Below are positions 7,269 through 59,880 of a stretch of 64,000 nucleotides of DNA, in pieces (positions within the stretch are counted from its first letter, which is position 1; the number at the start of each line of letters is the position of its first letter). The notes beneath the pieces are model-generated. The model was not told where the DNA came from. It did not search any database and was given only the letters and a program-made list of their open reading frames with translations. The stretch is from a virus. The DNA is taken from positions 1-64,000 of IMG/VR virus record IMGVR_UViG_3300027759_000007. One strand, given 5' to 3'. A program made the position numbers and the translations under genes.

Positions 7269-7865
7269 ATGAGCACTAACACCACCCCCGGCGAAATCGC
7301 CCTCCGCAACGTCAAACTCACCTATGTCCACGTCGATAAGCCGTGGGCTAAACAGGGAGACCCTGAAGACAAGAAGAAGTTCGCCATCACTCCGGTCTTG
7401 CCGAAGAACCACCCACAGGTCGCCGCTTTGCAGGCTGCTGCAAATGCAGTCGCCGTCGCTAAGTGGGGTGACAAGCTCAACAAGTCTGTTTTCCCGACCT
7501 ACTGCATCCGTGACACCGACTTGCCTACAGAGGCGAAGCATCGTGCCAAGGACGGCTTTGGCCCAGGCGTGTTGTTCTTCAACGCATCCCGCAAACCTGC
7601 TGATGGACCTCCTGCCGTTCGTCACAAGTCAGTGGCGTCAGGCACCGTGCAACTTAACCCTGCCACCAACCCGAACGAGTATCCTTACTCAGGCTCACTC
7701 GGCAGCGTCGTGGTGAAGTTTTGGGCACAAGACAACATCCACGGGCAGAAGATCAACTGCGAGTTGGTCGCTGTTGCCAAGTCCGCAGAAGGCGAGAAGT
7801 TGTCTGGAGGAGGCACCGACACCGAAGCCGCAGCCGCCTCGATCATGGAAGAAGACGAGGTGTAA
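7269..7865 (+). CDS. DUF2815 family phage protein (possible ssDNA-binding)
   Basis: A 198-residue protein from ATG 7269. A GTG at 7227 would add 14 residues, but the ATG sits behind the genome's usual ACCCCT context. The start TTPGEIALRNVKLTYVHVDKPW, then DKKKFAITPVLPKNHPQ, the central GPGVLFFNASRK and the later GQKINCELVAVAKS all fit DUF2815. This OB-like family lies next to DUF2800 and family A DNA polymerase in many phages and is thought to act as a replication ssDNA-binding protein (family-level inference). The C-terminus is acidic (SIMEEDEV), as in many SSBs. Confidence 0.85.
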   Translation: MSTNTTPGEIALRNVKLTYVHVDKPWAKQGDPEDKKKFAITPVLPKNHPQVAALQAAANAVAVAKWGDKLNKSVFPTYCIRDTDLPTEAKHRAKDGFGPGVLFFNASRKPADGPPAVRHKSVASGTVQLNPATNPNEYPYSGSLGSVVVKFWAQDNIHGQKINCELVAVAKSAEGEKLSGGGTDTEAAAASIMEEDEV

Positions 7866-7954
7866 CCGATTGAGAAATTTAGGGGTGCGTATTCTCACTA
7901 ATCAAATGTGATCCCCGAGAAGGTGCAAAGCCTTCACTTACTTTTCACAATCTT

Positions 7955-8209
7955 ATGGCTAAAAAAGCATCATCCAAAAAACCAAACCTATCAGTCGGAC
8001 GTGGCGAGAAGTTGCCAGTATCCAAAGGTGCTGGACTCACTGCTAAAGGCCGCGCCAAGTATAACGCTGCTACAGGGTCAAACCTAAAGGCACCCGCCCC
8101 CAAGCCCAAGACCGAGGCAGACAAGGGCAGGAAGGCTAGCTTCTGCGCTCGCAGTTCCTCTTGGACTGGCGAGCGGGGCAAGGCAGCACGCAAACGCTGG
8201 GCTTGCTGA
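7955..8209 (+). CDS. Small basic DUF6321-like phage protein
   Basis: An 84-residue, very basic protein. It contains GAGLTAKGRAKYNAATGSNLKAPAPKPK (about 24-51), then KASFCARSSS and the terminal RKRWAC. This GxGLTxxGRxKYNxxTGSNLKAP ... SFCAR ... KRW.C arrangement is that of the DUF6321-like phage family, of unknown function. The basic charge suggests nucleic-acid contact. It directly precedes the structured non-coding RNA region. The leader (7866-7954) has short hairpins such as GAAGG/CCTTC at 7919-7935. Confidence 0.8.
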   Translation: MAKKASSKKPNLSVGRGEKLPVSKGAGLTAKGRAKYNAATGSNLKAPAPKPKTEADKGRKASFCARSSSWTGERGKAARKRWAC

Positions 8210-8430
8210 CACAATTTGTGAGCTAGGAAGGAACGCCTAGCAATTCAAGACTCCTACCTGTATGGCGTAGAGCAGGGTAAACCGAGCGGTAAAGTCCGTA
8301 TAACGCCAGCAATTTCCACGGTCCCTTGTGTTTTTCATATTCCGCAAGGTAGGTGTTCTCTCCCGAATCACCCGCACCAGCCAGTCCTGTGCGCCCAGTC
8401 GAAGCAGGTGGTTTCGTTTCCACCCTCTAA

Positions 8431-8484
8431 CCTGTTGTGAGTCGCAACAGGGCTTTGCAAAAGATTGGCCCGACTCACCTTTTT
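8431..8484 (+). promoter_or_regulatory. Pseudoknot or terminator/antiterminator element
   Basis: Hairpin CCTGTTG (8431-8437) / CAACAGG (8445-8451) has the 7-nt loop TGAGTCG, which is perfectly complementary to CGACTCA at 8471-8477. An H-type pseudoknot can form, closed by GGC/GCC. Alternatively GTGAGTCG (8437-8444) pairs with CGACTCAC (8471-8478), which is followed by CTTTTT, giving an intrinsic-terminator-like hairpin that excludes the first one. Confidence 0.5.
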
Positions 8485-8583
8485 GATAGTAGAGTCCAGC
8501 GTCGGGGTGCGAGAGCACCAGATCGAGCGATTAGTCATCGCAGTGCAGGCTTAGACTGAGCTTGCCCGCTGGACTCTACTATC
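8485..8583 (+). ncRNA. RNA module A: 17-bp stem closing a three-hairpin junction
   Basis: GATAGTAGAGTCCAGCG (8485-8501) pairs perfectly with 8567-8583. Inside are three hairpins: GGTGC-GAGA-GCACC (GNRA loop, 8506-8519), GCGAT-TAGTC-ATCGC (8527-8541), and GCAGGCT-TAGACTG-AGCTTGC (8545-8565, one G-U). The loops of hairpins 2 and 3 contain AGTC and GACT and could kiss. The layout is cloverleaf-like but it is not a tRNA. Confidence 0.6.
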
Positions 8584-8584
8584 T

Positions 8585-8700
8585 GAAGGTTGAATTGAGC
8601 GGACATGGAGAAGCATGGCGACTTCCTCAATCCAAGGTTAGCAGCAGGTTCGACTCCTGCCATGTCAGCGGGGACGCCCGCAACGCTCAATTCAGCCTTC
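8585..8700 (+). ncRNA. RNA module B: 17-bp stem enclosing a tRNA-like fold
   Basis: GAAGGTTGAATTGAGCG (8585-8601) pairs with 8684-8700, with one U-G wobble. Inside, GACATG/CATGTC (8602-8607 with 8661-8666) forms an acceptor-like stem, GAAG-8nt-CTTC (8610-8625) a D-like arm, and GCAGG-TTCGACT-CCTGC (8644-8660) a canonical T-arm. Only 17 nt remain where an anticodon arm plus variable loop needs about 22, with no good stem, and no CCA follows. A hairpin GCGGG-GACG-CCCGC (8668-8681) lies on the 3' side. It is therefore not a functional tRNA. It resembles the YrlA/Y RNA plan (end stem plus tRNA mimic). Confidence 0.55.
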
Positions 8701-8726
8701 CATAAAACTAATTTCTGAATAACCAA

Positions 8727-8951
8727 ATGAACTTTTCTAACATGCGTATATGGACAGGCCAAAAAGAACAAGATGGGTGTCGTTTGGAGGTAAGTGACCC
8801 GTGGTTCTACCGAACGGAATTTGAACTCATAGCCAAGCAGCATCGAGAAACTTCAATAGGAGCTAAGTTTGTAGCCTTCCCAGCTTTCAAAGATGGCTAC
8901 CTCCACAGCATGATGGTGTTCATGCTTCCTCCATACAATCACGCTGGATAA
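8727..8951 (+). CDS. Hypothetical protein, 74 residues
   Basis: A soluble 74-residue protein starting MNFSNMRIWTGQKEQDGCRLEVSD and ending MVFMLPPYNHAG. No family recognised and no membrane segment. It lies between the structured RNA and the polymerase. It starts after GAATAACCAA, nearly the same context as the polymerase start (GGATAACCAA), which argues for real translation. Confidence 0.6.
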   Translation: MNFSNMRIWTGQKEQDGCRLEVSDPWFYRTEFELIAKQHRETSIGAKFVAFPAFKDGYLHSMMVFMLPPYNHAG

Positions 8952-8955
8952 CCAA

Positions 8956-11091
8956 ATGCCTCTGACTCTCCATCTTGATTTCGAGACAAAAAGTAGGTGC
9001 GACCTGCCGAAACGAGGCGCGTACCGTTATGCAAACGACGCTTCGACATCTATCTTGTGCGTGGCGATTGCAGAAGGGAATGGCGAACCTGTGCTGTGGA
9101 ACACTTGGCAACGCCCCCATTTTTCCCCTGCTTGGAACTTGATTGAAGCAGCGTCAGACCCCAGCACCATCATCTACGCCCACAACGCGGGATTCGAGCG
9201 CTCAATCAGCGATGCTCTATGGACCAAGACCTTTGGACTGCCAGCACCCCACTACTCACAGTGGCGTTGCACCGCAGCAATGGGAAGGCGTGCGGCACTG
9301 CCAGCTAGTCTGGAAAAGCTGGCAGAGGCGCTCAAGCTCGGACATCAGAAAGACCCGAAGGGGAAGGCGCTCATTCGCAAGTTCTCGATCCCACAAACCG
9401 TGGGCAAGTTGAAAGGGCAGTTCATCAACCCCGAGGACGAGCCAGAGGCATTCAAGGAGTTCTGCCAGTACTGCATCCAAGATGTCAAAGTCGAGCAGGA
9501 GATTCACCGAGTCCTCAAAGACTTCGAGCTTTCTGGCATTCCGCTTGAGACGTTCATCCTCGACATGGAGATCAATGGTCGTGGCTTCCCCGTGAACCTC
9601 GACGCCCTGCACAAGGCTCTCAAAATTGTAGAGGAGGAGAGTGAAAGGCTCGGCGGAGAGTTTACCAAACTGACAGGATGCTCACCCAACCAGAATGCCG
9701 TGTTCCTCGCATGGCTCAAGGAACGTGGCTACGAGGGCGACAACCTGCGTGCTGAGACGTTGGAGGAGACACTGGAAGATGAAGACTTCGACCCAACAAC
9801 CGAGGTCGGACAGGCGCTCACCCTCAAGAAGCAAATCAGCTACGCCTCGCTCAAGAAGATCCCGTCAATGATCAACTGCGCTGGGCCTCACGACAACCGA
9901 GTTCGTGGAACACTCACTTTCCACGGTGCGGGACCGGGGCGATGGAGCGCGACACTGGTGCAGCCTCAGAACTTTAAGCGTCCGACCATTGATGAGACGG
10001 AAGCAGTCTATGACGCCATCTGCTCGGGCTGCGATGCGACGTGGCTGCGTGAGATATATGGATCACCCTTGGAGATGGTGTCATCAAGCATCAGACACTT
10101 TATCCACGACACCGAGAATGGCGACATGCTGGATGCTGACTACGCAGCTATCGAAGCTCGCGTCATCGCATGGCAGGCACAAGAGGAGTGGAGACTTGAG
10201 GTGTTTCGCACTCACGGCAAGATTTACGAAGCATCGGCTTCTCAGATGTTCAAAGTCCCTTTCACTGAGTTTGAGCAATACAAGAAGGAGCATGGTAAAG
10301 TCCACCCGCTGCGCCTGAAGGGGAAGGTGGCAGAGTTGGCCCTCGGCTATCGTGGAGGACCTGGGGCAATGGAGAAGATGGGTGCGCTCAAGCAAGGACT
10401 CACCAAGAAGGAGCTACCTGCCATCGTGAAAGCATGGCGCGAGGCTTCCCCGAGCATCGTCAAACTGTGGGATGAAACCGAAGCCGCAGCGGTGCAGGCT
10501 GTCAGAACACCTAACATCAAAATTCCATTCGGTGTGCGGTGTCACTTCATCAGCACTCGGACGGCGGGGATGAACTACCTTTTCATGGTACTGCCGAGCG
10601 GTCGCCGTATTGCTTACCCAGATCCTATGATTGAGAAGGTGCTTGTGTGGGGCGTGAAGAAGATCATCAAAGATGAGAACGACGGAGATGTGGAGGAGAT
10701 GAGCTGGTTCAAGATTCTCAACCCCACCACTGATCAGATTCTTCAGGTTAAAGAGAAGCACTCGAATGCCCGCACCAAGGACGGCTTGACAATCTTCAGC
10801 CAGCTACCCAAAACCGTCCATTGGGGGAGATCGCTGACTCACGGCGGGATTCTCGTTGAGAACTGTGTCCAGGGTATAGCCTTCGACTTCATGGCAGAAG
10901 GTGCCCTCAACGCCAGCAAAGCAGGCTACGAAATCTGTGCCCTCATCCACGATGAAGCCCTGTCAGCCTACCATCCTGAGCAGGGACAGACGCTTGAGGA
11001 GTTTGTCGCGCTTTTGACAAAACTTCCTGCATGGGCTGACGGAATGCCGTTGAAAGCAGAGGGTGATGTCGTTAAATTCTATAAAAAATGA
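8956..11091 (+). CDS. polA: Family A DNA polymerase with 3'-5' exonuclease domain
   Basis: A 711-residue phage replicative polymerase. The exonuclease domain begins LHLDFETKS (D8, E10), with HNAGFERS at about 74-81 and a later exo motif CQYCIQDVKVEQEI. Polymerase motif A is DADYAAIEARVIAWQ (from D393), motif B is LRLKGKVAELALGYRGG (about 452-468), and motif C is IHDEA (H665, D666, E667). There is no 5'-3' nuclease domain. The length matches the phage PolA type that accompanies DUF2815, VRR-NUC and SNF2 helicase genes, all present here. It probably replicates the genome with the primase-helicase at 2220. Its stop overlaps the next start. Confidence 0.95.
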   Translation: MPLTLHLDFETKSRCDLPKRGAYRYANDASTSILCVAIAEGNGEPVLWNTWQRPHFSPAWNLIEAASDPSTIIYAHNAGFERSISDALWTKTFGLPAPHYSQWRCTAAMGRRAALPASLEKLAEALKLGHQKDPKGKALIRKFSIPQTVGKLKGQFINPEDEPEAFKEFCQYCIQDVKVEQEIHRVLKDFELSGIPLETFILDMEINGRGFPVNLDALHKALKIVEEESERLGGEFTKLTGCSPNQNAVFLAWLKERGYEGDNLRAETLEETLEDEDFDPTTEVGQALTLKKQISYASLKKIPSMINCAGPHDNRVRGTLTFHGAGPGRWSATLVQPQNFKRPTIDETEAVYDAICSGCDATWLREIYGSPLEMVSSSIRHFIHDTENGDMLDADYAAIEARVIAWQAQEEWRLEVFRTHGKIYEASASQMFKVPFTEFEQYKKEHGKVHPLRLKGKVAELALGYRGGPGAMEKMGALKQGLTKKELPAIVKAWREASPSIVKLWDETEAAAVQAVRTPNIKIPFGVRCHFISTRTAGMNYLFMVLPSGRRIAYPDPMIEKVLVWGVKKIIKDENDGDVEEMSWFKILNPTTDQILQVKEKHSNARTKDGLTIFSQLPKTVHWGRSLTHGGILVENCVQGIAFDFMAEGALNASKAGYEICALIHDEALSAYHPEQGQTLEEFVALLTKLPAWADGMPLKAEGDVVKFYKK

Positions 11092-16202: not shown

Positions 16203-16742
16203 ATGACTGACCAAATCGCACTCGACTCCCACACCTCTGAATGCTCTCTCGCCAGAGGTGACTTTGCACCATTCCTGACAGGGAGCCTTATCCTAGAGAT
16301 GGGTGCAGGAGGTGACACGACTGTCCCTCACGCTCTCACCTTCGACATGCCGCAGCCCTACACCCGTGTCGGCGGGGTTCCTCAGATCCTCCGAGGTGAC
16401 TGCCGCAACCTCGGCATGTTCTGTGATGGAGTCATTGATGGCATTGCCAGTCATCACCTACTGGAGGACTGGACCTACAACGATTTAGTGCCCCTGCTGG
16501 CTGAGTGGCGTCGAGTGTTGAAGGTTGGCGGTGTCATCTGCACCAACTGTCCTAACCAGCAAACCTTCTTGGCCCACTGTGCTGCGACAGGCCAAGGAAC
16601 GAATGATGCCCACAAGGAGCCAGACTTCAGCATTGGCAACTTCGAGAGGTTGGTGTTGGCAAAGACTGGACCTTGGAAGACTGTGCTGCGTAAGCCAGTG
16701 GTGCCTCCGTATTCATGGTATCTTGTGATTGAAAAAGCATGA
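16203..16742 (+). CDS. SAM-dependent methyltransferase (type 11-like)
   Basis: A 179-residue class I methyltransferase. SLILEMGAGGDTTVPHA (about 29-45) is the motif I glycine loop, DGVIDGIASHHLLEDW the motif IV region, and LAEWRRVLKVGGVICTNCPNQ (about 98-118) the classic 'L.E..RVLKPGG' segment. It heads the sugar-modification cluster (16203-21069), so it may methylate a glycan or sugar nucleotide. Its stop overlaps the next gene. Confidence 0.8.
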   Translation: MTDQIALDSHTSECSLARGDFAPFLTGSLILEMGAGGDTTVPHALTFDMPQPYTRVGGVPQILRGDCRNLGMFCDGVIDGIASHHLLEDWTYNDLVPLLAEWRRVLKVGGVICTNCPNQQTFLAHCAATGQGTNDAHKEPDFSIGNFERLVLAKTGPWKTVLRKPVVPPYSWYLVIEKA

Positions 16743-17716
16743 AGCACCCAAAGATTTACATTCTGAGCGCCCACGCGAAAGGAGACATCGACGGCACGAC
16801 GATGCAGAACATCCTGTGCCATCTCCCCAATCGCACGACCGAGCTTGTCGAGGCAGACGCGGTTCTGGTGCCAGTGTCTCACTTTGAAGACTTCAAAATG
16901 AACCCGCTTCTCAGAAAAGTGAAGAAGCCTATCATTCTGATGGATTTCATGGAGTATTACTCAGGAACCTCTGAGAACGTGACTCACCTGTTTGGGTCGA
17001 GGCATCGCGAAGCATGGTACAACTGCCCTGGGGGCGCATGGGACGAGTTTCACCAGTGGTGCGTGGAGAACCCGCCCGTGCTGACCTTCAAGCGTGAACT
17101 CTACCAGTGTGACGCCTCAGACAAGGTGGTGCCTATTGAGTGGCCTTGCTACCTGCCCGCGTGGGAGATCGAGCCAAAGTCCAACTTCGATGCTCGCCCT
17201 TTTGAACTGTTCTTCAACTGGGGGATGAGCCACCACTCTCGCCCTGCGTTTGCTGCTCAGGCTTATCAACTAATGGCAGAAGGTAAGATCGACATCGTTT
17301 CCCACTTTGACTGCATCGACTCCAAAGCTAATGAGCCGCACCGCAAGTGGATCAGCATCCACTCCCCCCACACGCACCGCACCAACATCAACGAGATTGC
17401 TCGCAGACAGGCCCAGTCGAAGATGAGTCTTTCGCTGCCTGGGGCGGGTGTTAAGTGCTTCCGTAGTTGTGAGCATCTAGTCCACACAGTCCCTCTGAAG
17501 CTACAGGACAGCATGGCTTGGTCCTTCCCGTGGGAGCATGGAGAGAACTGCCTTCAACTACCGTGGTCTTCCAACATGGCTTTAGACGCTTACGACTACG
17601 CCAAGCACTTCGACCTTCACTCTATCTATGCGTCGGCTCAAGACCTTGCTGACAGATACCGAGTCCACCGCTACACTGCCGAATACATCATGCCCCGCAT
17701 CCGCCGAGTCCTATGA
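16739..17716 (+). CDS. Exostosin-like glycosyltransferase
   Basis: A 325-residue protein. The C-terminal half, HRTNINEIARRQAQSKMSLSLPGAGVKCFRSCEHLVHTVPLKL, fits the exostosin/GT47-like pattern 'S.F.L.P.G....R..E....G..P', and YRVHRYTAEYIMPRIRRVL follows. The N-terminal region (IYILSAHAKGDIDG) is Rossmann-like. It probably has a GT-B fold and transfers a sugar to a glycan or protein. It sits between two methyltransferases with 4-nt overlaps. Confidence 0.65.
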   Translation: MKHPKIYILSAHAKGDIDGTTMQNILCHLPNRTTELVEADAVLVPVSHFEDFKMNPLLRKVKKPIILMDFMEYYSGTSENVTHLFGSRHREAWYNCPGGAWDEFHQWCVENPPVLTFKRELYQCDASDKVVPIEWPCYLPAWEIEPKSNFDARPFELFFNWGMSHHSRPAFAAQAYQLMAEGKIDIVSHFDCIDSKANEPHRKWISIHSPHTHRTNINEIARRQAQSKMSLSLPGAGVKCFRSCEHLVHTVPLKLQDSMAWSFPWEHGENCLQLPWSSNMALDAYDYAKHFDLHSIYASAQDLADRYRVHRYTAEYIMPRIRRVL

Positions 17717-18318
17717 ATTTTGACCTTATCAAGAAGCACATCAACCCGAAGTCGATTTTAGACGTGGGAAGTAACGTCGGTCACTGGCACAACGAAGCCC
17801 GACTGCACTGGCTCAACGCCTACTTCTTCCTTATCGAAGGCAATCCAGCTTGTGCCGAGCAGCTAGCTATGACTGGAGCCAGTATGCGAATCGCCCTGCT
17901 GAGTGACACTGAGAAGGAGGTGACGTTCTTCACGCGCAATGATGCTCCGACCTGCACAGGGGCAAGCTACTACCGTGAAAACACTGAGTTCTACGATGAA
18001 AGCAAAGCAGTCCCTCACACCATGCTCACGCAACGCCTAGACGACGTGGTGGAGGGCCATACTTTTGAGCTTATCAAGATCGACACCCAAGGCAGTGAAC
18101 TGGACATCCTTCGCGGAGCGCCCAACACCCTCAACGCAGCTAGAGCCGTCATCATGGAGGTGAGTCTCACCAACTACAACGAGGGTGCGCCTCAGATGAG
18201 TGAGACGGTCATGTTCATGGAGGCCCACGGCTTCTACCTAGCCGAGAATCTTGGCGATATTGTCCACCCTGTTCAACGCAACGTCATCCAACGCGACTGT
18301 CTTTTCCTCCGCTTATGA
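17713..18318 (+). CDS. FkbM family methyltransferase
   Basis: A 201-residue methyltransferase. Motif I is SILDVGSNVGHW (about 14-25) and the FkbM signature is ELIKIDTQGSELDILRGA (about 117-134). RAVIMEVSLTNYNEGAP and MFMEAHGFYLAENL complete the family pattern. FkbM enzymes methylate O-positions of sugars or natural products. The genomic setting among glycosyltransferases suggests capping of a glycan chain. It overlaps both neighbours. Confidence 0.88.
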   Translation: MNFDLIKKHINPKSILDVGSNVGHWHNEARLHWLNAYFFLIEGNPACAEQLAMTGASMRIALLSDTEKEVTFFTRNDAPTCTGASYYRENTEFYDESKAVPHTMLTQRLDDVVEGHTFELIKIDTQGSELDILRGAPNTLNAARAVIMEVSLTNYNEGAPQMSETVMFMEAHGFYLAENLGDIVHPVQRNVIQRDCLFLRL

Positions 18319-19055
18319 GCCTTCAAATTGTTGCTGTCGCTAATGGCGAGCCAACTCACGACTACCTCAAGAGAGGCTGGGAAGCCTTTCTCAAATCATC
18401 GAGGCGTTATGGCTTCGAGCCGTTCGTTCTTGGGTGGGGTCAACCGTGGCAAGGGCTTGGTAGTAAGCCCAAGCTACTCAAGAAAGCCGTCGAGGACGGG
18501 CTTGTGAGTGCTGACCATCTGCTGTTCGTGGACGCTTTCGATGTCTGGTTCGGCTCCAACCCTGAGAACATCCTCAAGTTGTTCCTGATGCAGTCTGACT
18601 ATGACATCATCTGGAACGCCGAGAAGAACTGCTTTCCAAACGCGGACTGGGCCAAGGACCACCCTGCTACAAGTTCTCCGTTCAAGTTCTTCAACTCAGG
18701 GATGAGCATCGGCAGGATCGGAGCCTACCACACCATCTTTGAGCAGATGAAGGTGGATGAGTGGCCCAACGACTACCAACGCAAAGACAAGTCATGGGTG
18801 CATGTGAACGACCAGCATCACGTCATGGAGAAGTTTCTCTTTGGGCAGTGCTCGGAAGGAGAGCCAAAGATGGCTCTCGACTCGGGGTGCTTGATGTTCC
18901 AAACGCTCACAGGGGTTGAAGCGAACGAATTATCCATCAAGCATGGGCGTGTCTTAAACCTTTTCACAGAGACTTGCCCTGTCGCTTTTCACGCCAACGG
19001 CGGCAGCAAGACAGCCGGACTCATGGAACCAATTCTGCAAGCCTTCGATCTATGA
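18315..19055 (+). CDS. PLOD1-3-like / GT-A glycosyltransferase
   Basis: A 246-residue GT-A-type enzyme. The metal-binding DxD lies in HLLFVDAFDVWFGSNPE (about 73-89), KFFNSGMSIG (about 118-127) is the acceptor-pocket motif, and the start IVAVANGEPTHDYLKRGWEAFLKSSRRYG is the N-terminal strand and helix. This pattern (FVDA.DV.F ... NSG ... G) is that of the PLOD1-3-like glycosyltransferase domain. Transfer of a hexose onto a protein or glycan is likely; donor and acceptor are unknown. Confidence 0.78.
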   Translation: MSLQIVAVANGEPTHDYLKRGWEAFLKSSRRYGFEPFVLGWGQPWQGLGSKPKLLKKAVEDGLVSADHLLFVDAFDVWFGSNPENILKLFLMQSDYDIIWNAEKNCFPNADWAKDHPATSSPFKFFNSGMSIGRIGAYHTIFEQMKVDEWPNDYQRKDKSWVHVNDQHHVMEKFLFGQCSEGEPKMALDSGCLMFQTLTGVEANELSIKHGRVLNLFTETCPVAFHANGGSKTAGLMEPILQAFDL

Positions 19056-20047
19056 AATCAGCTGAACTGACCTTTGGACACTCGGGCGACTTTGGGGATG
19101 TAGTCTTTGCGCTTGCCCTCGTTGAGCGCAGTGGAGGAGGTCACATCCGACTCTACGACCGACCCTACACCAAGGCTATCAGTTCGAGGGCTGGCGTGAT
19201 TGTCCCCCTGCTAAAAGCACAGCCTTACGTCAAGTCAGTGCAGATAGCGGAGCCAGATGAGAGCACTATCGACCTCTCCAAGTTTCGGTCACACTACCAG
19301 CCCGACCGCACGCTCCTCATGTCGCAGTGTCTCTACGCTGCCAGAGCCTATCAGACACCAGTGGTGCGAGGTGCAGAGGCTTGGCTGACAGCAACACCAA
19401 GCAAAGCTACCAAAGGCCGAGTCGTTATCGCTCGCAGCCCACGCTACCACAATGACAAGTTCCCGTGGGAGCGCATTCTAGCCCATTATGGAGATGAGTG
19501 TATCTTCATCGGGTTGAAAGAGGAGCACGACTATTTTGCAGATTCGTTCGGGCCTGTAGCGTATTTGAAGACTGACAATCTGCTAGACGTTGCAGAAGCT
19601 ATCGCAGGCTCAGACCTGTTCATCGGAAACCAGAGCAGCCCGAACTCAGTAGCCGAAGGACTCAAGCACCCTCGCATCTTGGAAGTGAGCGAGAAGCAGT
19701 GTGATTGCATCTACCCGAACCACGGCGTCCTGTGCTACGATGGCTTTCTGAGTGAGCTACCCGCAGCAGGTGGTAAAGAGCGTGAAGTCTTTGAGAAGCC
19801 GCCCACATTCAAGAAGCTCGACCTCATCATCTGCCCGCCGAGAGGCTGGCGCTACCCTGGACTGCCTACAAGCACTCATGCGAACGTGCTAGTGCCTCAA
19901 GTAGCCAAGCACCTCAACATCTCGAAAGAGGAAGCCCTTCCGCTGATGTACGACTACAACTGTCAGATCAACCCTGAGTTCTTCAAAGACCCAGCATCCG
20001 AGGCAAAATACGCCCGAGTTCGGAAAGCCATCGCAAACGCACAATGA
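19052..20047 (+). CDS. GT9/heptosyltransferase-like glycosyltransferase
   Basis: A 331-residue protein from ATG 19052, which overlaps the upstream stop; an extended start at 18974 would lie wholly inside the previous gene. GHSGDFGDVVFALALV resembles the N-terminal G-x-x-GD loop of ADP-heptose and related GT-B enzymes. GRVVIARSPRYHNDKFPWERIL and AEAIAGSDLFIGNQSSPNSVAEGLKHPRILEV (about 190-220) match the GT9 'L...SD.FIG.....H.A.G' C-terminal motif. It is the fifth member of the sugar cluster. Confidence 0.72.
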   Translation: MKSAELTFGHSGDFGDVVFALALVERSGGGHIRLYDRPYTKAISSRAGVIVPLLKAQPYVKSVQIAEPDESTIDLSKFRSHYQPDRTLLMSQCLYAARAYQTPVVRGAEAWLTATPSKATKGRVVIARSPRYHNDKFPWERILAHYGDECIFIGLKEEHDYFADSFGPVAYLKTDNLLDVAEAIAGSDLFIGNQSSPNSVAEGLKHPRILEVSEKQCDCIYPNHGVLCYDGFLSELPAAGGKEREVFEKPPTFKKLDLIICPPRGWRYPGLPTSTHANVLVPQVAKHLNISKEEALPLMYDYNCQINPEFFKDPASEAKYARVRKAIANAQ

Positions 20048-21069
20048 AAATCATCATCCCCATTGGCCCCAAAGACGCCACCAACCTAAATCTCCTTGTC
20101 CGAACCATCGTTTCGCTCGGGGAGGTCAAACAGCCTATTCTGATTGTCACCGTCCCGTCGCTCCTGACCGAGGCAGCACAAGCACAGGAGAACCTGCTGA
20201 AGGTCTGTGAGCGAGTCGAGCTTGTGGACACAGGCGACGAGTTTGCAGACGGCTGGTTCATGGGAGCCAACCGCATGTTTCACTGGGTCGCGACTCACCT
20301 CCACATGCAGGAGAACAAGCATGGCTGGCTATGGATGGAGGCTGATTGCTGCCCCCTGCGTTCAGGTTGGTCAGATGCCCTTGAACAAGAGTATCGTGAC
20401 GCCAAGAAACCCTTCATGGGTTTTGTCCGTCCTCAGAAGCACAAAGACGAGAAGGGCATCATTTATTTCAAGGCAGGAGACAACATGCTGGCGGGAGTGG
20501 CCCTTTACTCACCTCAGATGCTTACAGATCAAGAGATGCTGCCACTGTTCAATAATTTGAACATATCGCAGAGGAATGCTCACCCCAAGTATCCGTGGGA
20601 CATCTACTTGCGATGGAGATTCTTCAAGCGGGGTGTCCATGAAACCGCGCTGATGCATGACAAATGGCAAACGCTCAATTACCGTCGTGAAGGAGGTCAA
20701 CTTGTCTGCGAGGCTGCTCCTGATGCCCCAATGGGTACGGCTACGGGCGGTGTGATCCCTAAAGCTGCTGTGCTTGTTCACGGGTGCAAGGATGGCACGC
20801 TGCAAGAGTTGGTCATCGCAGAGCACTCGAAGCCAATCGCTAAGGTTGCTGCCCCGAAGACAGTGACATTTATCGTCGGAAACAAGAGCGACATTACCAA
20901 GGTGGAAGAGGTCATCCACACCCTCCGCACCGAAGGCATCAAGCCACGGGTGGGCGACATCGCCAAGAGAGCTGGACTATCGGCTGCTGATACTAAACCG
21001 ATCCTCGACCAACTTGGTCATGTGATCGGCACCGCAGGATGGGTAACACTGAAGGAGGAAGAAGTATGA
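20044..21069 (+). CDS. Glycosyltransferase with C-terminal winged-helix-like domain
   Basis: A 341-residue protein. The N-terminal part (MKIIIPIGPKDATNLNLLVRTI) and the GWLWMEADCCPLRSGW metal-site region (about 94-109) indicate a GT-A-like glycosyltransferase, and DNMLAGVALYSP is an acceptor-side motif. From about residue 280, KVEEVIHTLRTEGIKPRVGDIAKRAGLSAADTKPILDQLGHV reads as a helix-turn-helix, an unusual fusion. The HTH could tether the enzyme to DNA or be a small-domain adaptor. It ends the sugar cluster. Confidence 0.6.
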   Translation: MKIIIPIGPKDATNLNLLVRTIVSLGEVKQPILIVTVPSLLTEAAQAQENLLKVCERVELVDTGDEFADGWFMGANRMFHWVATHLHMQENKHGWLWMEADCCPLRSGWSDALEQEYRDAKKPFMGFVRPQKHKDEKGIIYFKAGDNMLAGVALYSPQMLTDQEMLPLFNNLNISQRNAHPKYPWDIYLRWRFFKRGVHETALMHDKWQTLNYRREGGQLVCEAAPDAPMGTATGGVIPKAAVLVHGCKDGTLQELVIAEHSKPIAKVAAPKTVTFIVGNKSDITKVEEVIHTLRTEGIKPRVGDIAKRAGLSAADTKPILDQLGHVIGTAGWVTLKEEEV

Positions 21070-38200: not shown

Positions 38201-38395
38201 TGTGCCATCAGCTTCAAAAAGAGCTAGCTTGGCTCTCATAGAACCACTCACCATGTTGAAACTGCCTCCTGCGATCACCTGCCCTGCGGCATCGAGATTG
38301 ACGCAGATGCCTTCAGCATCCAAGCCTGCACCGGGGTCGAAGCTAGTGTCTGTGGTCCCATTGGAGTTAAGTCGGGCGATGCGGTTAGGGATCAT
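35201..38395 (-). CDS. Delta-60 repeat tail fibre/spike-type protein
   Basis: A 1064-residue surface-type protein. Several blocks repeat the delta-60 pattern 'RIARLNSNGTTDTSFDPG ... GKIILGGDFTTIDGTTRNRVARL' (about 1-180, and again about 390-700, with LAVAQLPDGKVMIGGEFATVNG). Between and after them are choice-of-anchor-D/ASPM-SPD2-like Ig modules (LDFGSTQTGVASNLVVNIVNRGLDDLTL, and TTTSVTLSNIGGADLNS) and a fibronectin-III-like C-terminus. These families are typical of bacterial cell-surface proteins of Verrucomicrobiota and Planctomycetota. In this late operon the protein is most simply a receptor-binding fibre. No signal peptide. Confidence 0.7.
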   Translation of the reverse strand: MIPNRIARLNSNGTTDTSFDPGAGLDAEGICVNLDAAGQVIAGGSFNMVSGSMRAKLALFEADGTLITGTPTPSATVRTLVTQVNGKIILGGDFTTIDGTTRNRVARLQNDYTLEAAFNPNANGAIHACALQEDGKILVGGAMTQVGALTRNGVARLYNDPASNVLSVSSLSEVQWLRSGATQEAQRVTFEKDIGAGYVTTGITVSRIDGGWKATITPDLVTGSIRARAFPSDSHSEGMIEEIVSFVVDPAIEVSVEGIVRTSGVGTLDFGSTQTGVASNLVVNIVNRGLDDLTLTSAVLTSTGTPTGTNWSIPAQPTTPVLPGGAASFTLAFNPTVQGSKTDTVTINSDDPTTPAFTISLAGVGTPGPGALDTTWQPIANNTVNTVSRSPTDLSWVGGDFTTVSALSRGRYAYINDSAVVQSQAGAGANGRVLAVAQLPDGKVMIGGEFATVNGVARRGIARLNADGSVDTSFVSMGLVSGDSVWCFALQPDGALLVGGTFLTFGGLNRIGLARLTSTGAIDSTFTSHFYGLVRSIAVQTDNKILVSGSFTDAISGRGVARRNSDGSPDATFTSGLTSGSAVVASMAVDATGKVLLSGPYTAGAVTGLNRFTALGALDATFTNNVTAAQSIAVQTDGNIIVGSSTSGSLTSTERLFRVTTLGAADSTFGANARNTVYGVTLISVDMPPINNVPQPPEGRALVSGNYTLAGSPRSLARVIAGPVNSSLTVVGPAEITWVRGGTLPECQTVVFDLSQDSGVSWNRLGQGARISGGWRIIATSVAGPLLPGFFFGSLPVSGTIRARAYIQGGLSNGSVSILEEQRTFSGLPSPDLILQVGANEIAEGGIVQFNPILGGTNTTTSVTLSNIGGADLNSVSAAVSPVGGGVAGEFIIVSTPATTISAGGSTALGVQFAPAANIVGYRSAFLRITSSNPGLKNPYDVTLNGTAITAPTAATVSPATAIVAGAATFTGTFKANHDAATAYFQYKLVSATNWINSGSSTLAGFTATIVTKTVTGLTAGQQYHFRAVIYNTVSNITTIPTTGGNLSPALVNVGTISASFTAA

Positions 38396-39222
38396 GGTGA
38401 GAGTATAACCTCTTGAATCAGTTCGTCCAGCCTACTTTGAGGTATGGTAGTGAGCCAGTGTTGGGTCATTTGTTGCACCATTGGGTGCTCTAGCGTCTTG
38501 TAAAGGTGAAGCCAGCCTCGATAGTAGTTCTTGATGCGGGCATCGTTGCAGCTTGGGTACGAGCGTTTGGGCCAGCAGAAGCGGTGCATCCAGCCCATTG
38601 CAGGGTGACATAGAACCTGTCCTCTTTGCTTGCGAACCTTTTCAGCGAAGAACCACTCTTCGGCTCCGAACCCTTGGAAGTTAGGTAGATTGGTTGGAAA
38701 GTGCTCACGCCAGAAGGAGAAGCACCCCATGCCTTGCATGTGTATCTCAAAAGGCTCGGTGCCCTTAACCCCAACTTCGTCAGTCCCCCAAGTGCCAAAA
38801 TCCTGTCCTCGCCACACGGGATTCATGTGAGTCGAACGAGACTTCAGGCAGTTGTAAACGAGCGGACCTGTGAGTTGATTTCTTGACCCTTGGTTCGCCT
38901 CCCACCATTCCAAGAGTCTGTCGATGAAGCCAGTCTCTAACAGCACATGGCAGTCCAGCCCGAGAACAACATCCCCTGTGGCGTGTTTGAAAGCATCGTA
39001 TTTGACGAAGCTGCTTTGGCGATCTTCGACATGAATCCATCGGCTGTTCGGAACCGCTGAGAGAAAGTGTTTTGTAGCTTCCAAGTGGTCGCCTTTCGGG
39101 CTGTTGTCGAGCACCAAGAACTCTGTGTCCGCTGGTAGCTTGTGATGCATACGGAGCGACTGGACGGTGAAAAACACGCCGTCGTAGTCGTCGTAGCACG
39201 CCATTGAGATGGTGAGTTTCAC
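38392..39222 (-). CDS. GT2 family glycosyltransferase
   Basis: A 276-residue GT-A enzyme. MKLTISMACYDDYDGVFFTVQSLRMHH is the N-terminal 'P.YN' strand of GT2, LVLDNSPKGDHLEA is the nucleotide-sugar motif, and VVLGLDCHVLLETGFIDRL has the DxD-like DCH metal site (about 86-88). GFGAEEWFFAEKVRKQRG (about 184-201) supplies the C-terminal 'ED.' catalytic region. It lies between two fibre genes and is coupled to both neighbours by 4-nt overlaps, so it probably modifies fibre or receptor-side glycans. Confidence 0.82.
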   Translation of the reverse strand: MKLTISMACYDDYDGVFFTVQSLRMHHKLPADTEFLVLDNSPKGDHLEATKHFLSAVPNSRWIHVEDRQSSFVKYDAFKHATGDVVLGLDCHVLLETGFIDRLLEWWEANQGSRNQLTGPLVYNCLKSRSTHMNPVWRGQDFGTWGTDEVGVKGTEPFEIHMQGMGCFSFWREHFPTNLPNFQGFGAEEWFFAEKVRKQRGQVLCHPAMGWMHRFCWPKRSYPSCNDARIKNYYRGWLHLYKTLEHPMVQQMTQHWLTTIPQSRLDELIQEVILSP

Positions 39223-40490
39223 GGAAGTACGAGAGTGGTGTTGTATCCTGATTCAATCACGACATACCCTAGACCTTGGTAAAGTACCAGTGTGTGCTCC
39301 AGTTTTTCAACGGGTGTGTTTGAGTTAGATTCAAAAAATATCTTCTTTGGTAGCCAAGACCTATCACGCGCATTAGTAACAAAATCGCGGGCAAAACCAT
39401 CAAGGATGATAGTGTCGTGCCCTTCCGTATCAATCTTCAGGTAGCCCACACTGCCGATGTTGAACCGCTCGTACAGTTTGTCCAAGGTGGTCATGGGGAC
39501 TTGCTCACGCTGAATTCGCTCAAGAGGAAGCTGTTTCGAGTTCAAGTAGCCTTGAATGATCGGGTGGATGTCATCAATCCGTGTGCAGCCAGCCAGCCAC
39601 GTTGGAAGCTCGTACTTCAAGATGTCCTCCCTCGATACAAAGACAGCCTCGCAGAACCCCTCTTGGTCTGACACAGCCTCTACTAGTTTGATCACATTCG
39701 GGGGGCTTGGTAGAACGTCTAAGTACCGCCCCACTGGCTCAACAGACAGCCCTCTCGCCGTTTGGGGTGCCGAAGCTATTTGAGTGTCAAAATCACAAGT
39801 CCCAATTTCGATAAAATCAAAGTGCTCTCTTTCTTTCGGCCACTGCTTAAAAGGCAGAAGTCCTGTTGTAACGCCTGAAGCATTCAAAAGCTCACAGCCA
39901 AGGTTTGCGGCGTACTTTTCCGCTTGCTTGAACAGTCTGACCAATTCTTGTTCCCCAAGCCGAAGTGGGTCGGGTGTGCCGTGCCCATAGAAAAAATCAG
40001 GTTCAAAAGTTTTGAAGAATTCCTCCCCCCATTTAATTGCGTCTATGGGGTTAGCACCTCCGAAGAGATCGTGAGGAGTAGGTTGCTTGGCTTCCCTCCA
40101 TGTTTGAGTCTTAGCTTTATTGTAGTCGTGGTCAAAGCCGAGATGTAAAATCCGCTTCGGTTTGAAGGTGTCTAGTATCCAGAAAAGACCTTGGAAGTAC
40201 AGTGTGTACCCGATGTGATACTCTGGTCGCTCAAACTGCATACCCAACTGTTCACACATACGCCCGGGCGAGTCTTTGTATTCGTAGTAGCTGACTACCT
40301 TTGCCCCATGATCTTTCGGGAGGAAGCCAGACGCAGGAAAATCCCCTGAATGCACCCAGTAGTCTAAGGTATTTTTGTCGAAAACCTGCCAAGAGTTATT
40401 GACCGCGCATGTTACATCTACCGATGATAATATCTTAGATGCCTTTCTTGCGGATATGCCACTGCCTACATAGAGCACTACGTCAGTCAT
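39219..40490 (-). CDS. FkbM methyltransferase with N-terminal Rossmann-like domain
   Basis: A 423-residue fusion. The C-terminal half is FkbM: EHFDFIEIGTCDFDT (motif I region), RGLSVEPVGRYLD and GSVGYLKIDTEGHDTIILDGF (the FkbM 'KID.EG.E..VL.G' signature). The N-terminal ~210 residues (VVLYVGSGISARKASKIL, AVNNSWQVFDKNTLDYWVHSGDF, KRILHLGFDHDYN) look like a Rossmann/DUF115-type or GT42-like domain, possibly a sugar-transfer module. A bifunctional glycan modifier is therefore plausible. It lies directly after fibre 1. Confidence 0.75.
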   Translation of the reverse strand: MTDVVLYVGSGISARKASKILSSVDVTCAVNNSWQVFDKNTLDYWVHSGDFPASGFLPKDHGAKVVSYYEYKDSPGRMCEQLGMQFERPEYHIGYTLYFQGLFWILDTFKPKRILHLGFDHDYNKAKTQTWREAKQPTPHDLFGGANPIDAIKWGEEFFKTFEPDFFYGHGTPDPLRLGEQELVRLFKQAEKYAANLGCELLNASGVTTGLLPFKQWPKEREHFDFIEIGTCDFDTQIASAPQTARGLSVEPVGRYLDVLPSPPNVIKLVEAVSDQEGFCEAVFVSREDILKYELPTWLAGCTRIDDIHPIIQGYLNSKQLPLERIQREQVPMTTLDKLYERFNIGSVGYLKIDTEGHDTIILDGFARDFVTNARDRSWLPKKIFFESNSNTPVEKLEHTLVLYQGLGYVVIESGYNTTLVLP

Positions 40491-59461: not shown

Positions 59462-59880
59462 AGAGTGATATTTTATATCTAAATATATACCCCGTAAACG
59501 TAAAAAGAGACAGCGACACAAACGACAAAAAGACAGCCGCTCTCCGGTCTCAAAGCAAAACAAAAACGAAATCTATATTCTAGGACAATCTATATATAAA
59601 GTCATAGATTGGCTATCCTAGAATATAGATTTCAAAGATTTCGGGTCAACGAGATGCACACTCAAGGTATTTTGTCGGAGGAATAAAACCCCTTTTAAGG
59701 GTTAAAATAGTTCACTTGAACACTAAAACGACACCAAATGGTAGGACTTTCGCAAATATGAGAAAATAAAATTGGTAGAAGTGGAAATATATACATATAT
59801 CTATTGCCAAAGGTAAAAAAGAACCGAGAGTAGTGGTCCCAAGTGGGGACTTCGGAAAAAATCAAAAACAAAATCAGACT
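59462..59880. other. Divergent AT-rich intergenic control region
   Basis: No gene seen. It separates the minus-strand late operon from the + strand early genes and is clearly AT-rich. Besides the dyad at 59568-59633 it has TATATATTTAGATATAAAATATC-like sequence just upstream of the minus-strand start, an AACCC/GGGTT hairpin near 59687, and GTCCC/GGGAC (59837-59850). It probably holds the divergent promoters and may hold an origin. Confidence 0.5.
59568..59633. promoter_or_regulatory. Long AT-rich inverted repeat (18 bp arms)
   Basis: GAAATCTATATTCTAGGA (59568-59585) and its perfect complement (59616-59633) flank a second inner inverted repeat CAATCTA/TAGATTG (59586-59592 with 59605-59611). 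The element is centred in the divergent region. As DNA it could be a cruciform, an operator for a dimeric repressor, or an origin element. Confidence 0.7.

Follow-up and report, generated by a model that had tools for sequence, protein, structure and literature searches.

A candidate structured RNA with a tRNA-like domain beside the DNA polymerase gene of a phage

Described phage RNAs and the locus

To our knowledge, phages have yielded only a small number of large structured RNAs, and the functions of GOLLD and ROOL have not been established. GOLLD and ROOL are phage-encoded large ornate RNAs, and the linkers of GOLLD sometimes carry phage tRNAs (PMC12286853). The put RNA of phage HK022 is a promoter-proximal RNA of about 70 nt with two stem-loops, the bulged stems of which bind the zinc-binding domain of RNA polymerase (PMC9378689). 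In phage PhiTE, pseudo-ToxI, a non-coding RNA made of a short tandem repeat, is a possible molecular mimic (PMC3475682).

The locus described here lies in the 65,144-base virus record IMGVR_UViG_3300027759_000007, of which a stretch of 64,000 nt (the window) was analysed. Rightward genes for a DUF5906/PriCT-2 primase-helicase-like protein, a DUF2800 protein, an Enc34-type single-stranded DNA-binding protein (SSB) and a DUF6321 protein are followed by a gap, after which a 74-amino acid ORF, a family A DNA polymerase, an SNF2 helicase and a terminase continue in the same direction. The terminase has no tblastn match among 50,697 phage records, so this phage is far from the described ones. The features of the region are as follows.

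7955–8209, + strand: small basic DUF6321 protein of 84 amino acids, the upstream flanking gene (Pfam PF19846, E = 3.7e-16)
8210–8430, + strand: non-coding 5' part with weak local hairpins (for example 8222–8241, 8324–8349, 8373–8393 and 8407–8424); no coding signal, z = -1.3 over 8215–8430
8431–8477, + strand: putative H-type pseudoknot, seen as complementarity; S1 8431–8437/8445–8451 and S2 8438–8444/8471–8477, 7+7 pairs, all Watson-Crick
8480–8484, + strand: run of five T directly 3' of the pseudoknot, a possible weak intrinsic terminator tail judged from the sequence and the fold of the segment
8485–8583, + strand: domain 1, with a perfect 17-bp closing helix, a four-way junction and three inner hairpins (8502–8526 with a GAGA loop, 8527–8541 and 8545–8565); pairing probabilities 0.77–1.00, z = -7.6 for 8484–8584
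8584, + strand: single base, predicted to be unpaired, separating domains 1 and 2
8585–8700, + strand: domain 2, with a 17-bp closing helix (one G-U pair) and a three-way junction from which the tRNA-like fold and hairpin 8668–8681 branch; closing helix probability 0.99, z = -5.3 for 8584–8702
8602–8666, + strand: tRNA-like fold in which a proper anticodon arm is missing; acceptor 8602–8607/8661–8666, D-stem 8610–8613/8622–8625, T-arm 8644–8660 (motif statistics, relaxed ARAGORN, tRNA-Sec model and a covariance-model match)
8727–8951, + strand: 74-amino acid ORF downstream of the gap, without a Pfam or PHROG match
8956–11091, + strand: family A DNA polymerase, the downstream flanking gene (Pfam PF00476; tblastn identity of 34–36% to phage DNA polymerases)

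Like GOLLD and ROOL, the element is a non-coding, multi-helix RNA with a predicted pseudoknot in a phage genome and has a tRNA-related part inside it. Unlike them, it has no Rfam match, measures about 270 nt as opposed to several hundred to more than 800 nt (several hundred nucleotides of conserved ornate structure are, together with a homo-oligomeric cage, the mark of these families), and has no tRNA array, its tRNA-like part being degenerate and enclosed in a helix. None of 4227 Rfam families matches within the window, and a permissive Rfam search of 8100–8800 gives no GOLLD, ROOL, OLE, HEARO or tmRNA up to E = 5. The Infernal comparison proposed in the initial annotation thus agrees with its own remark that the visible motifs do not identify GOLLD or ROOL; judged by these models, the element is none of the five. 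The resemblance holds in the loose sense of an ornate, phage-borne RNA only. The proximity to tRNAs that had been drawn from GOLLD and ROOL, for which it is usual though not universal, fails in the literal sense, as ARAGORN at default settings finds no intact tRNA within the window, while a degenerate tRNA-like domain is present within the element itself.

With HK022 put, the element shares a pair of adjacent stem-loops placed in the early operon of a phage; it differs in being 216 nt long (8485–8700), with multi-branched domains, and in lying deep in the operon, with no promoter above chance in 7800–9100. The put RNAs are located downstream of an early promoter. With tRNA-like structures and the tRNA-like domain of tmRNA it has in common an acceptor-like helix stacked on a T-arm with a UUCGANU loop, and a GG-containing D-loop, but it lacks a free 3' end, CCA and a tag reading frame, and matches neither tmRNA nor tRNA at gathering score. 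Like pseudo-ToxI of PhiTE it may be a phage non-coding RNA acting as a molecular mimic, although it contains no repeats.

Folding of the gap

An unannotated structured RNA of about 480 nt (8222–8700) had been proposed here, in a gap without a convincing gene. The gap (8210–8726) is indeed non-coding, every ORF inside it being negative on hexamer usage; its - strand ORFs, searched as pseudo-proteins, matched the same virus only. Strong structure on the + strand also stands, over about 270 nt (8431–8700) instead of 480, the first 200 nt or so falling away. The fold of 8210–8725 has an energy of -196 kcal/mol, with z = -6.5 on the + strand and -4.0 on the - strand. Segment tests place all the excess folding energy in 8484–8702: the two domains together (8485–8700) reach z = -8.8, with none of 300 shuffled sequences equally stable, while 8215–8430 is no better than shuffled sequence and 8215–8360 gives z = -0.9. 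In this 5' part small hairpins alone stand out, such as 8324–8349. The stretch 8424–8723 has the best z (-8.6) among all gaps longer than 200 nt in this genome and two relatives, matched solely by a window at the end of the relative G005, which is a tandem repeat. Since values of about -6 over 300 nt also occur in apparently coding windows of other phages, z by itself is not proof; the 270-nt stretch is probably a genuine RNA element.

The two longest stems are, as first described, 17 bp each, and they adjoin each other. The helix 8485–8501/8567–8583 contains 17 Watson-Crick pairs and the helix 8585–8601/8684–8700 contains 16 Watson-Crick pairs and one G-U pair, both with a pairing probability of 0.99. 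With wobble pairs allowed, helices of 17–18 pairs are reached only occasionally in shuffled 64-kb sequences. In total, twelve helices comprise 91 pairs, of which 87 are Watson-Crick and four G-U, with no mismatches. All four wobble pairs are G-U in the + sense and would be A-C on the - strand, in line with the original assignment of the stems to the + strand; this weakly favours a + strand RNA over a - strand RNA or a DNA cruciform, as this would arise about once in 16 by chance if the strands were equal.

The pseudoknot of the initial annotation is confirmed as complementarity. Its Watson-Crick-only motif occurs once in the window, compared with 0.2 on average in a shuffled 64-kb sequence, both strands counted, and only this form is significant: with G-U pairs allowed, 70 are found against about 54. 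Taken by itself, the segment with the pseudoknot folds no more stably than expected (z = -1.4). Two folds compete in 8431–8486, the alternative being a terminator-like hairpin formed by S2 and GGGC/GCCC and followed by CUUUUUG, which the segment prefers when the pseudoknot is left out.

The tRNA-like part of domain 2

Within domain 2, residues 8602–8666 can form an acceptor-like helix of 6 bp, a D-stem of 4 bp whose 8-nt loop contains GG and, directly adjoining the acceptor, a 5-bp T-stem with the loop UUCGACU, whereas the anticodon arm is shrunk to an 18-nt strand. The features by which tRNA-like structures are broadly recognised (an acceptor-like helix, an adjoining T-arm with a TTCRANY loop and a D-arm with GG) are all present, and the arrangement occurs once in the window, as against 0.02 occurrences in a shuffled sequence of 64 kb (both strands). 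A complete cloverleaf with an anticodon arm, recognised by ARAGORN or Rfam, is not found at 8602–8666: ARAGORN at lowered stringency reports a tRNA-???, and the best score within the tRNA clan of Rfam is 17 bits for the tRNA-Sec model, the gathering score of which is 47. The acceptor ends are buried in a helix and there is no CCA. The cloverleaf-like form lies 1.1 kcal/mol above the minimum free energy, and the part by itself is not thermodynamically special (z = 0.1).

Run against 398 genomes from a single phylum, a covariance model built from this sequence alone (R1) matched just once, to a genuine bacterial tRNA-Met(CAT) with E = 1.4e-4 per genome, which aligns precisely to the 8602–8666 part; being the best match among very many tRNAs, it is no reliable pointer to a parent tRNA. 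On the predicted fold, 8602–8666 is tRNA-like, yet not a tRNA, and the whole is best classed as an unassigned structured RNA candidate with a tRNA-like domain. The T-loop UUCGACU (8649–8655) is exactly complementary to AGUCGAA upstream (8397–8403), which would happen by chance in about 3% of cases; a long-range contact between the two is possible.

Relatives, genomic setting and possible roles

Homologues were sought at the DNA level among phages and plasmids, by two pseudo-protein scans, by one loop-pattern scan each of viral contigs and genome contigs, and with covariance models against 50 virus records and 743 bacterial genomes. In these viral, phage, plasmid and bacterial collections the sole copy stands on an identical contig from this virus (IMGVR_UViG_3300009183_004770), which contributes no covariation; the reach of the searches is limited, as a single-sequence model and exact-pattern scans miss diverged homologues. 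Several leads were discarded. Two BLASTN leads (H2 and H57), with E near 1, fall in long genes annotated as protein-coding, and the loop-pattern matches in the viral and genome collections are unrelated. The three matches of a further covariance model (R2) are at chance level for about 743 genomes, and two of them (L159 and L160) fall within reading frames, the one in L159 being a leucyl-tRNA synthetase by sequence. High-z windows beside DUF6321 in other contigs (L019–L024 and L036) have a long open frame and are apparently coding, and a non-coding-looking stretch of 578 nt after DUF6321 in L003 is not structured above chance (z = -1.2). GANTC enrichment is not notable. Being an orphan, the element illustrates how family-based annotation overlooks lineage-specific structured RNAs in phage cargo sites.

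Searches with neighbouring genes (DNA polymerase, SSB, DUF6321, TerL and a two-sequence polymerase profile) led to related phages, all without the RNA; a TerL profile found no relative among genome contigs. Two IMG/VR relatives, G005 (65.8 kb; also L105) and L106, have a polymerase 59% identical to that of our phage, and G005 is collinear across most of the genome, with a terminase identity of 63%. Between DUF6321 and the polymerase, G005 carries a pair of small ORFs, of which one has a PEP-CTERM motif, and L106 a methyltransferase-like gene and a TET-associated glycosyltransferase (TAGT) gene, while in a further contig (L085) the DUF6321 gene directly abuts the polymerase. The element therefore occupies an accessory location and, from these comparisons, looks lineage-specific, at a variable cargo position; the variability speaks for an accessory role and against one in core regulation. 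As an orphan of one virus, it could be a recent or decaying insertion.

At least 596 IMG/VR stretches contain relatives of the DUF6321 protein itself; in the best 80 the identity is about 70–94%, and many of these lie in otherwise differing phages, a distribution that suggests frequent horizontal transfer of this small protein. Elsewhere in the genome, 59568–59633 forms an AT-rich, near-perfect hairpin of 66 nt with 18 uninterrupted outer pairs, located in the non-coding stretch from which leftward and rightward genes diverge, a candidate promoter or origin region.

The reading we tentatively prefer, without giving it even odds, is a lineage-specific RNA element of about 270 nt, carried as cargo of the early operon and acting in trans or releasing itself as a tRNA mimic. 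Its intact helices and the preference for one strand point to action as RNA, and a tRNA elbow suggests contact with tRNA-binding proteins; tRNA mimicry is the likeliest mechanism. What we infer of transcription, autonomy, binding partner and purpose is this: the element would be transcribed rightward together with the early (replication) operon, and domain 2 would display the elbow, formed by the D-loop/T-loop contact, on a rigid 17-bp stem. The transcript, whole or excised from the operon mRNA, would be a stable mimic bound by host tRNA-handling proteins such as T-arm modification enzymes or RNase P, or by tRNA-targeting defence nucleases. It might titrate such proteins, or use their cleavage to free itself or the downstream polymerase mRNA. 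Such a compact element with an inner tRNA mimic would open the role of these RNAs to concrete tests, by way of T-arm modification, RNase P cleavage or defence nucleases. A bolder version, a new class of phage non-coding RNA that is exchanged between phages as cargo beside replication genes and whose tRNA elbow, lacking an anticodon and held on a rigid stem, captures or diverts tRNA-handling host or defence proteins, we consider unlikely.

A cis-acting element of the early mRNA is possible, if somewhat doubtful. It could work by put-like antitermination, the two adjacent stem-loops acting on RNA polymerase as it passes, as an attenuator formed by the pseudoknot or terminator-like hairpin and the U5, or as an RNase III or RNase P cut freeing the polymerase message. 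Two stem-loop domains one base apart in a same-strand early operon recall put RNAs, themselves pairs of stem-loops from the early operons of phages (PMC9378689), and the competing folds of 8431–8486, one of them running into CUUUUUG, suit an attenuator; the U-run, however, is just five long, and the size and depth in the operon are not those of put RNAs near early promoters. Relatives that have retained the flanking genes lack the element at this position, so it is dispensable for expression of the polymerase. Degeneration of a captured tRNA gene, or of a GOLLD/ROOL-like RNA along with its tRNA, into a functionless remnant would account for the missing anticodon stem, the rejection by ARAGORN at normal stringency and the lack of relatives; but decay should break helices, and with both 17-bp helices intact and not one mismatch in the 91 pairs, we regard this as quite unlikely.

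We rate as very improbable that the function resides in the DNA, with cruciform-forming inverted repeats acting as a replication origin or protein-binding site in the replication module. Long inverted repeats do lie beside the SSB and DNA polymerase genes, and the fold of the - strand is stable too (z = -7.4). Yet the four wobble pairs all favour a + strand RNA, a cruciform needs no inner hairpins, pseudoknot or tRNA-like loop sequences, no iterons were found, and the AT-rich divergent intergenic region with hairpin 59568–59633 is a better origin candidate. Scarcely credible is an attachment site, with the tRNA-like part as an attP core that has its match in a tRNA gene of the host: the T-arm and the 3' strand of the acceptor resemble a tRNA 3' end, but the 5' strand of the acceptor and the D-arm are present as well, and no identical 3' tRNA segment occurs in phages or plasmids. 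Neither a tyrosine nor a serine recombinase was found in the record, in searches that detected their positive controls, which makes such a site unlikely.

The polymerase frames of two other contigs, L086 (4014–6461, 815 amino acids) and L087 (2403–5426, 1007 amino acids), contain inserted segments that look like inteins. Tandem repeats of GGTGAGCTGGTGGTCCAGTGAGCT-type units are present at both contig ends of G005 (L099 14586–14846 and L096 1–140), suggesting a circular or terminally repeated genome. In the window, 16203–21069 and 38392–40490 contain a cluster of glycosyltransferase-, FkbM- and other methyltransferase-like genes, in which the glycosyltransferase at 38392–39222 is 92% identical in G005 and neighbouring genes about 45–70%.
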